From Neobacillus mesonae (GTDB lineage: Bacteria; Bacillota; Bacilli; Bacillales; Cytobacillaceae): 64,000 nt of DNA. Shown one piece after another: positions 44,174 through 50,546 of this stretch. Under the pieces are notes generated by a model, which was given only the letters and a program-made list of their open reading frames with translations, was not told where the DNA came from and ran no database searches. Within the stretch, counting starts at the first letter, position 1; each line of letters begins with the position of its first letter. The position numbers were made by a program, and so were the translations under genes. The stretch is taken from the NCBI RefSeq assembly GCF_001636315.1, contig NZ_KV440949.1:3218973-3282972 (forward strand), in the 5' to 3' direction.

Positions 44174-45050
44174 TTAGGCAGCTACCTGGGCATGAGTTCG
44201 GTATAGAACCGGACTCATGCCTTTTAATTTTGCCTTAATCCGTTTGTGATTATAGTAATAAATATATTTCTCTAATTCTACTTTAAAATGCTGCATACTC
44301 TCAAATTCTTTTAAATAGAGTAATTCAGACTTTAATAAGCCAAAGAAATTCTCCATGACTGCGTTATCTAAACAATTCCCCTTACGTGACATACTCTGAG
44401 TAATCCCACGTTCTTTTAAAGCATGTTGGTACTGCTTCATTTGATAATGCCAACCTTGATCAGAATGGAGGATGGGGGTGTCTCCGTCATTTAGACGTTT
44501 AAAAGCTTTATCCAGCATTTTTGAAACAAGTGGATAAACAGGACGCTTTTCTGTGTTAAAAGCGATGATTTCCCCGTTGTATAAATCTAGAATGGTGGAT
44601 AAATATAGCTTCTCTCCATGTAGGTGGAATTCTGTTACATCCGTTACCCACTTCTCATTAGGCTTTGATGCTTTAAATTCACGCTCCAAAATATTAGGGG
44701 CAATTTTACCTACTTGCCCACGGTATGAACGATATTTTTTCATGCGTACAAGACATTTTAATCCCATTTCATTCATCAGGCGGCGAACAGTTTTATGATT
44801 AATTTGTAATCCTTGATTACGTAATTCCAACGTGATACGACGATATCCATATCGTCCTTGATGTTCCTCAAAAATATGATTAATTAGTTCTTTGACTTCC
44901 TTATATTTATCTGGACGATTCATTTGTTTAATCCAGTAATAATAGGTACTACGCGCAATACCAGCGACCTTTACTAGATCGATAACTTTAAATTCATGCC
45001 TTAATTCATATATTACTTGCGCTTTGTCTTGTTCCGTAATTTTTCTTTTT
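44174..45050 (-). CDS. IS3-family transposase OrfB (integrase catalytic domain, via frameshift)
   Basis: Read as an OrfAB fusion after a -1 slip on the A-rich AAAAAG stretch near 45040-45051; the upstream end given is the slip region, and the first ATG in this frame is at 44923. The rve core contains the DDE triad: Asp in WVTDVTEFH, Asp in LHSDQGWHY and Glu in [11 protein letters not shown], with exactly 35 residues between the second Asp and the Glu. The helix-turn-helix_21 part includes IARSTYYYW and [15 protein letters not shown]. Catalyses copy-out paste-in transposition. Confidence 0.9.
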
Positions 45051-45522
45051 CTTGAATTAAGGCACTCAACTTTTTTAAATAGGCATTCTCCATACGTAAA
45101 CGCTCAATTTCAGCGCGTAACGCTTTTTCAGATCCTTCCGCCGGTTGAGCTTTGTTTGTTTCTTTTTTCATGGATGAACGCCCCTTTGTCTTTGGTTGAA
45201 GAGCGTCAATCCCTTGAGTTTCAAATAAACACTTCCAATTCCCGACTGTTGTAGAGGCTGGAATGTTAAATGCTAAAGCTGCTTCATCGATGGACGCTCC
45301 CATCTCGTTTATATAATTTAGTACGTCCATTTTAAACTCTACTGGATAGTTTGTATATGTTTTGTGGAAAGCTGCTAATCCATGTTCACGATACTTAGCT
45401 ACCCATTTTTTTAACATCGTAATATTTACACTATATTTTCCAGCTATATCTTTAAAGGATTCTACCCCCTCAAGGTAGTCATAAATAGCTTCTAGTTTGG
45501 TTTCTAAAGAATATTTAGTCAT
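45013..45522 (-). CDS. IS3-family transposase OrfA (DNA-binding subunit)
   Basis: 169 aa from ATG 45522, with GGAGGTG 8 nt upstream. Two helix-turn-helix units ([20 protein letters not shown] then LKKWVAKY; and [20 protein letters not shown]) bind the IS ends. A C-terminal leucine-zipper-like coiled coil ([20 protein letters not shown]) precedes the A-rich frameshift site. Overlaps the OrfB frame by about 37 nt. Confidence 0.9.
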
Positions 45523-45613
45523 AAAAAACTGCACCTCCAATTGTTAGTTGTGTCTAACAATTGGGGTGCAGTTCATTAGTGGAAAAGGCTCTTTTTATTT
45601 ACATAAGAATCTA

Positions 45614-49116: not shown

Positions 49117-49337
49117 CCCACATCACACCCTCGAATTTTTAAAGTTCAATAAATAGGTTAATTTACCCATACTATAATATACTTGCCATTCTTAAAATAT
49201 GTTGATTTTAAGAATTATAAAAAAAGCGTTGATATCAATTTACAATGATACACAAGGAGTCAATGTACAAATTTCTAATGTAAAAGTCTAATTTGATAAA
49301 ACATGAGTATTATTTTAGTAAGAAAGGAAGTGATATG

Positions 49338-50447
49338 ATGAAAACAATCGGCGTTTTGGGGGTGGGCCAGGCGGGCGGCAATATTGCCCAAATTGCAGCA
49401 ACCATGGGCTTTCAAACCGCTCTAATTAACACGAACCAGAGGGACGGCATAGTCAATACAAAGGTCGAAAGAAAATTCTTTGTCCCCGGATATAATGGAG
49501 CTGGTCAAAATCGGTCTATAGGATTAAAGGCGGTTAATGAACATTACCGAGAACTCATTGACTTTGTGCAGAAATCTTTCAAAAACATAAAGCTTTTGTT
49601 AGTGGCTTTTTCTACTGACGGCGGTACTGGCTCGGGAATGAGCCCATTACTTATTGACCTGTTATTGGATAATATGCCAGGTGTCAACGTAGGTGCAATA
49701 GCGGTTGTTCCTGATCGCAATGTCCTAGCTGGTAACCGAATTAATGCAACTGAATGTATCACGGAGATCTCTAGAATTGATTCTCTTTCCTCGGTCTTCC
49801 TAGTTGACAATGACCAAATGCGAAAATTAAACCCACAATCCAGCAAACATCAAATCTATCTATCCTCTAATCAACAGGTCATGGAAGCCATTAACCATGT
49901 GCTGCAAATAACCCGGAAAAGCTCTTTTTACGGAAACTTTGATGAAACTGATATGATGAATATTTTGGCGACTAGAGGAGTAACAATTATTTCATCGGCA
50001 GCAATCACAGATGCAAAGACCACATCTGAGGTGGCAAGTAAAGTGCAGCAATCCTGGCTTAATTCCATTTTTTGCCCGGTTGAATCTGCAGGTGTCATTC
50101 GCGCTGGCTTAATTTATGAAGGATCGGAAAAAATGGCAAAGTTAATAAATGTCCCTGCCATTTTTGAGGCTGTCGGGGAGCCATTAGAATTGTTTGAAGG
50201 AACCTACATTACCGAAGCAGATCCGACCATAACTACGATTTTGGCGGGGCTTCCATTCCCAAGCCGTAGGATGGTTGCTATAGAGGAAACGCTTGAGAAA
50301 AACAAGGATCGGTTGCAAAACTTAGTAAGTAAGGAGTTTACTCAGAATTATGAGTCGAAAATACCTTGGGCTTCGAGTCTGAAAGCCAAACCGCAGGAGA
50401 GAAAAACGGGGAGTATTACGTCAAAGTTGTCGAAATATCAGAAGTAA
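49338..50447 (+). CDS. FtsZ/TubZ-like tubulin-family GTPase
   Basis: About 369 aa. The nucleotide-binding T1 loop is GVGQAGGN (residues 7-14). The tubulin signature DGGTGSGMSP has GGTGSG at 95-100. The T7 loop N-F-D-E-T-D (200-205) matches the NxDxxD catalytic loop that completes the GTPase site of the next subunit, so polymerisation-coupled hydrolysis is possible. The C-terminal tail is basic (KPQERKTGSITSKLSKYQK) and lacks the FtsZ peptide that binds FtsA/SepF. It is not in an ftsAZ context: neighbours are a serine hydrolase and UspA. ATG 49338 has GGAAG 7 nt upstream; ATG 49335 is equally in frame. Likely a cytomotive filament of unknown role. Confidence 0.85.
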   Translation: MKTIGVLGVGQAGGNIAQIAATMGFQTALINTNQRDGIVNTKVERKFFVPGYNGAGQNRSIGLKAVNEHYRELIDFVQKSFKNIKLLLVAFSTDGGTGSGMSPLLIDLLLDNMPGVNVGAIAVVPDRNVLAGNRINATECITEISRIDSLSSVFLVDNDQMRKLNPQSSKHQIYLSSNQQVMEAINHVLQITRKSSFYGNFDETDMMNILATRGVTIISSAAITDAKTTSEVASKVQQSWLNSIFCPVESAGVIRAGLIYEGSEKMAKLINVPAIFEAVGEPLELFEGTYITEADPTITTILAGLPFPSRRMVAIEETLEKNKDRLQNLVSKEFTQNYESKIPWASSLKAKPQERKTGSITSKLSKYQK

Positions 50448-50457
50448 GTATTTAAAA

Positions 50458-50500
50458 GGGCAGTCCTACGCTAAGAGAAATAGATGGGGCTGCTTTTTTT
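50458..50500 (+). terminator. Terminator after tubulin-like gene
   Basis: GCAGTCC / GGGGCTGC stem (one bulge), then seven T. Confidence 0.65.
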
Positions 50501-50506
50501 GCATAT

Positions 50507-50546
50507 AAAAACAGTGCCTTCTGCATTAATCTGAAGGCACTGTTTT
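50507..50546. terminator. Bidirectional terminator before uspA
   Basis: AAAACAGTGCCTTC / GAAGGCACTGTTTT perfect 14-bp stem, 11-nt loop. Confidence 0.85.

Follow-up and report, generated by a model that had tools for sequence, protein, structure and literature searches.

A TubZ-like tubulin GTPase gene that stands alone, with no adjoining tubR, in the chromosomes of Neobacillus and close genera

We identified a stand-alone gene for a TubZ-like tubulin GTPase in a 64,000-bp stretch of the Neobacillus mesonae genome (hereafter the window). Its product is probably a TubZ-type cytomotive GTPase that derives from a type III partition system, has lost its TubR, and is now a stand-alone core gene of Neobacillus and close genera. 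The protein is TubZ-like by fold and tail, and the locus is not a TubZRC system. The features of the locus, in window positions, are as follows.

49284..49322, + strand: conserved promoter-like upstream element, AAGTCTAA-N13-GAGTATTATTTTAGTAAG
49338..50447, + strand: TubZ-like tubulin GTPase gene, 369 aa (open reading frame, Pfam, tree, and structure prediction)
49359..49382, + strand: G1 nucleotide-binding motif GVGQAGGN, residues 8 to 15
49617..49637, + strand: G-box DGGTGSG, residues 94 to 100
49932..49952, + strand: T7 catalytic loop GNFDETD, residues 199 to 205
50328..50444, + strand: basic, mostly disordered C-terminal tail, residues 331 to 369, with invariant Y338, S340, W344, and L348 and terminal SKLSKYQK
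50458..50501, + strand: possible terminator after the gene, a weak hairpin followed by a T run, read by eye

The open frame at 49338 to 50447 (+ strand, 369 aa) is intact and holds all three motifs (GVGQAGGN, DGGTGSG, and GNFDETD), so that the tubulin/FtsZ GTPase signature of the original prediction (GVGQAGGN, GGTGSG, and NFDETD) is indeed present. The ORF finder also offers a longer in-frame start, a TTG at 49293, but we prefer 49338 because a ribosome-binding site and the relatives back it. The protein matches Pfam Tubulin at 48.1 bits (cut-off 33, E 2e-12) and falls just below the cut-off for Tubulin_2 (26.1 versus 27 bits). Among sequences of solved structure, the best matches are phage c-st TubZ, then 3zid (a tubulin/FtsZ GTPase; CetZ), then RepX/TubZ of Bacillus cereus. 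The gene lies on contig 1 (5,806,292 bases) of a two-contig genome, which bears out the chromosomal location first proposed, and it is chromosomal in relatives too, single-contig genomes among them.

The GTPase motifs are strongly conserved. Seven of the eight G1 positions are identical in all 45 orthologues, the exception being V9, which is replaced by I in 3 of the 45. The G-box is invariant but for T97 (S in one orthologue), and in the T7 loop N200, D202, and D205 are present in 45/45. GTP-binding residues have thus been kept across the 45 orthologues rather than lost in most of them. The median dN/dS among these orthologues is 0.072 (Nei-Gojobori; 142 of 990 pairs, those with 0.2 < dS < 1.5), indicating purifying selection. 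Broken copies occur in 2 of the 58 genus members that have the gene (G113 and G124); the latter is the frameshifted copy L043, which was excluded from the selection set. With orthologues intact throughout a genus, the gene is far beyond chance.

An orthologue at ≥68% identity is present in 58 of the 61 Neobacillus genomes, the other three having no match. Across the GTDB family the count at this threshold is 75/193 genomes, 17 of them outside Neobacillus: 4/5 genomes of one further genus (g7), 8/8 of another (g8), and single genomes elsewhere. The locus search returned 45 relatives at 68 to 94% identity, 24 titled Neobacillus and the others mostly Bacillus sp.; among named relatives, Neobacillus kokaensis comes closest (94% at the protein level). 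Farther out the gene is rare. In the order sample, 5 of 397 genomes, our own included, carry an orthologue at ≥74%, and one more has a 27% match; in the phylum sample, the orthologue is confined to our own genome among 398, with three others matching at 22 to 26% through longer proteins. TubZ and rpoB distances show moderate congruence (Mantel r 0.48, p 0.0001) in the 27 genomes with both genes available, a set drawn from the window's best matches.

Relatives on mobile elements are far more distant. On plasmids, relatives reach no more than 33% identity (tblastn, 22 records, 18 of them Priestia), and the phage match is phage G alone, in two records of a single genome. Close viral relatives were absent from a single-sequence scan, and an alignment-based scan gave distant ones only. 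The closest non-orphan sequences that we compared, from Priestia megaterium plasmids of the pBM400 type, Bacillus velezensis and Bacillus pumilus plasmids, and phage G (gp138), are 29 to 34% identical; they are equal in length, and their tails look alike by eye. The best mobile matches are P. megaterium plasmids and phage G, which infects B. (now Priestia) megaterium. These matches, and a gene that stands alone without a DNA adaptor, would suit a role in interference, in which a chromosomal TubZ copolymerises with, or poisons, the TubZ filaments of incoming plasmids or of jumbo phages of the phage G type, thereby serving in incompatibility or defence. We regard such a role as unlikely: the gene is near-universal in the genus and evolves slowly, unlike patchy defence genes, the full catalytic set is retained, a PADLOC search gave no match (nor did Rfam), and the 29 to 34% identity to mobile TubZs makes copolymerisation doubtful.

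The orphan loci differ from these mobile relatives in what lies upstream. All four plasmid and phage records (phage G, pBM400, and the plasmids of B. velezensis and B. pumilus) carry, directly upstream of tubZ, a gene of some 100 codons whose end meets or slightly overlaps the tubZ start; the Neobacillus gene has none. The small gene probably encodes a winged-helix protein in the TubR position. In the three records whose ~100-aa proteins were scanned, these gave weak matches to winged-helix and other families, below Pfam cut-offs, so their identity as TubR is drawn from place, size, and mutual similarity. We built a TubR-like profile from 11 such small upstream proteins. At E < 1e-10 it matched a gene abutting tubZ in the four plasmid and phage records and in 36 of 69 viral-contig loci, although 11 of these 40 matches are the profile's own training rows and no match of that strength came from the remaining 33 viral loci. 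The profile also matches in three of four distant relatives found in genomes. No TubR-like gene adjoins tubZ at any of 105 orphan loci (a count that includes duplicates and one locus, L019, with just 21 bp upstream), so the absence of an adjacent TubR-like gene, predicted for the window, extends to its relatives. Weak profile matches at two of these loci, about 400 bp downstream of tubZ in L028 (E 0.001) and about 5 kb off in L006 (E 0.004), neither abut the gene nor are shared.

If a TubR were encoded elsewhere on the chromosome, the gene would belong to a functional type III partition system. The basic tail is conserved, as such a system might require, and some genomes yield weak TubR-profile matches. 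However, genome-wide searches of 12 genomes gave no convincing TubR: the best match was E 8e-4 (G141) and that in our own genome 0.023, against 8e-41 for a control plasmid. TubRs diverge fast, and a very distant one would escape a profile search. No direct repeats of the kind expected for tubC iterons lie beside the gene in the window. On this evidence we think a working system with a distant TubR rather improbable. Two close relatives have tandem arrays of a 52-bp repeat immediately before tubZ (L004:6353-6919 and L007:5774-6879), with a sequence that varies by locus; we rejected them as tubC iterons, since each genome has the repeat family at several sites.

The TubZ of tubZRC systems (pBtoxis, B. 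cereus group plasmids, and phage c-st) shares with the Neobacillus protein its fold, its GTPase and T7 motifs, and a flexible basic tail; the Neobacillus gene differs in having no adjoining tubR and no iteron centromere that we could find, and in being chromosomal and genus-wide. TubZ without TubR has precedents. According to excerpts of PMC7762940, some clostridial chromosomes encode a TubZ without TubR, accompanied by TubY; going by that description, the clostridial and Neobacillus genes are alike in the missing TubR and differ in that TubY is the partner in clostridia, whereas the Neobacillus gene has no conserved neighbour. Plasmid repX-like minireplicons also encode an orphan TubZ, as stated in excerpts of PMC4219350. 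The Neobacillus case thus extends a phenomenon already reported for clostridia in the same PMC7762940 excerpts. Our literature search found no paper joining TubZ with Neobacillus, nor TubZ and TubR with megaterium.

An FtsZ-like GTPase domain, together with the frequency of extra FtsZ copies in these genomes, raises the alternative of a divergent FtsZ paralogue serving division or sporulation septation. The ftsZ equivalog model TIGR00065 scores the protein at 50.8 bits, far below its cut-off of 295.2, while two other genes of the same genome score 465 and 451 bits. One of these strong FtsZ genes (L235) directly follows ftsA (TIGR01174, 413 bits). The other, at 451 bits, is a second FtsZ paralogue outside the division cluster (G000:C1:5324998-5325483; L002/L234), and two to four strong FtsZ matches are present in 19 of 20 genomes examined. 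Like the TubZ-like protein, FtsZ has a disordered linker followed by a terminal peptide, but the peptides differ: our genome's own FtsZ ends in DIPTFLRNRNRRR, the FtsA/SepF-binding peptide, which is absent from the TubZ-like protein with its terminal SKLSKYQK. No ftsA or div gene is found among the neighbours of the TubZ-like gene in the window. On both the peptide and the neighbours the original prediction was correct.

The protein was also compared with FtsZ by phylogeny and predicted structure. In a tree of 63 rows (IQ-TREE), the 18 orphan rows form a clade with 100/100 support amid phage and plasmid TubZ-like rows, and the 17 FtsZ rows group together on a branch with a length of 3.36 changes per column. 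The PhuZ of jumbo Pseudomonas phages, also a tubulin-family spindle protein but phage-borne, is a far branch (4.18). CetZ and the TubZs of solved structure were left out of the tree. Support at its deep forks is weak (55/83) and long branches come together, so the tree does not prove the exact sister group, nor loss of TubR as against its original absence. The AlphaFold2 model (19 alignment rows; pLDDT 83.8, pTM 0.84) was compared with solved structures. With VIA-align the top five rows are all TubZ (Z 37.1, 36.9, 36.4, 35.2, and 34.2), the best being phage c-st TubZ (Z 37.1, 296 residues aligned, 2.0 Å), followed by B. cereus TubZ (Z 36.9); CetZ2 comes next after TubZ (Z 33.3), and FtsZ reaches at most 30.5 among the best 50 rows. 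Foldseek ranks c-st TubZ 1 and 2, CetZ 3 and 4, B. cereus TubZ 5 and 6, and FtsZ from 8 onward. Among proteins of solved structure, TubZ is the closest both in predicted structure and in sequence, and CetZ is second. The protein is therefore not FtsZ, its score, tree position, terminal peptide, and locus all being against that identity, and a divergent paralogue with a role in septation is improbable. The possibility raised at the outset, of a gene within true FtsZ and no second copy in the genome, does not apply: the protein branches outside FtsZ, and a canonical FtsZ gene sits beside ftsA.

The surroundings of the gene are not conserved. Among the neighbouring gene families, the commonest appears in 8 of 72 contexts (some species being counted twice), and the comparison of neighbourhoods suggested in the original prediction showed synteny within subclades only and no conserved neighbour. 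None of the seven neighbours searched is a replicon gene. The prediction had also offered an origin from an integrated replicon. In the form of a TubZRC replicon or prophage in decay, this is very improbable: although relatives with a TubR-like gene sit on plasmids and phages and two broken copies are known, the idea is contradicted by the breadth (58/61) and selection (median dN/dS 0.07) of the gene. The seven neighbours without a replicon gene, the lack of any family in more than 8/72 contexts, and a GC content of 0.427 against 0.396 in the flanks also speak against it. Measured from dnaA in 20 genomes, with rounded chromosome sizes, the gene lies near the terminus (0.44 to 0.50 of the chromosome) in ten, at 0.08 to 0.16 in nine (two of these in the mirror-image position), and at 0.25 in one (G155). 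The near-terminus set includes all six genomes sampled from g7 and g8. Two further elements were observed nearby: a two-ORF transposase (helix-turn-helix ORF plus rve integrase), presumably of the IS3 type, a few kilobases upstream at 44174 to 45540, and a perfect 14-nt inverted repeat downstream at 50508 to 50546, which may be the terminator of a convergent UspA gene.

Some 40 bp upstream of the gene, with GTCTAA-N13-GAGTATTAT, recur across genera, though the genes farther upstream differ. Forty-seven of 65 distinct upstream sequences pass our motif test, and the other 18, mostly from one Neobacillus subclade, have a changed version. Because the threshold is loose (264 of 1,300 shuffles also pass) and the upstream sequences are homologous, what counts is the fixed position and spacing alone: in the passing sequences, the spacer is 13 bp in 44/47, and in 37/47 the distance from the end of the −10-like box to the start codon is 27 or 28 bp. 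The element GTCTAA-N13-GAGTAT resembles sigma-B sites, and our genome's own sigB operon has GTTTAG-N14-GGGTAT just upstream. We set a sigma-B promoter aside nonetheless. A sigma-B above the cut-off is missing from 4 of 20 genomes, and the element persists in two of these (G148 and G109), while in the other two (G013 and G015) its −35-like half is degenerate; the failure of 18/65 upstream sequences in the motif test weakens the reading further. A regulon search in six genomes found none. The motif at up to two mismatches was rarer than a reversed control in five of the six, the exception being G141 (21 versus 12 occurrences), in which a single repeated sequence accounts for 10 of the 21; exact matches occurred at tubZ only in five genomes, and the sixth has one mismatch at tubZ.

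The median net charge of the tail is +7, against −5 for the core, and pLDDT falls below 50 at residues 331 to 341 and 343 to 358. The four invariant residues (Y-x-S...W...L) lie inside this disordered part in all 45 orthologues, residues 350 to 357 vary, and the majority terminus is SKLxKYQK (K366 invariant, K363 0.98, L364 0.91, Y367 0.89, Q368 0.82, and K369 0.71). Excerpts of PMC7762940 describe the flexible basic tail of plasmid TubZ as contacting TubR-tubC and mattering for assembly, and the tails of pBc10987 and pBtoxis TubZ, which have basic clusters, as critical for assembly; a role of the tail in assembly is likewise given for Pseudomonas phage TubZ/PhuZ in excerpts of PMC3678025. Conservation of the tail in the absence of TubR points to a new partner, or to a function in assembly like that in the Pseudomonas phage proteins.

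Under our preferred reading, an ancestor of these genera would have captured TubZ from a phage or plasmid tubC-tubR-tubZ system. The DNA adaptor TubR would then have been lost, and a function of the filament in the host would have come under selection. That the gene came from a mobile element long ago is plausible. The protein is predicted to bind GTP and to polymerise head to tail, the T7 loop completing the active site of the next subunit, and the filament would treadmill or depolymerise upon GTP hydrolysis. The basic tail (Y-x-S...W...L plus SKLxKYQK) may hold a different host partner, such as an unlinked adaptor, DNA, or membrane, so that the filament would move or organise host cargo and not a plasmid. 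Of the originally suggested little-studied Bacillaceae filament, a genus-wide, selected, TubZ-like GTPase without TubR has been borne out, while filament formation itself we infer. We offer more tentatively the idea of a host cytoskeletal filament, a domesticated DNA spindle of a mobile element, that carries a chromosome region, a membrane site, or a stress or spore structure by way of a new partner of the tail.

TubZ filaments are the machinery with which selfish elements drag plasmids. A chromosomal TubZ without TubR, present across a genus and under selection, would, if true, represent the capture of such a motor by its host, and it opens the question of what a cytomotive filament does once its DNA adaptor is gone, a question approachable in culturable Bacillaceae. 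If the filament has indeed been domesticated, a bacterial tubulin encoded on the chromosome would have a role in addition to that of FtsZ, and this in a soil genus that is easy to grow.
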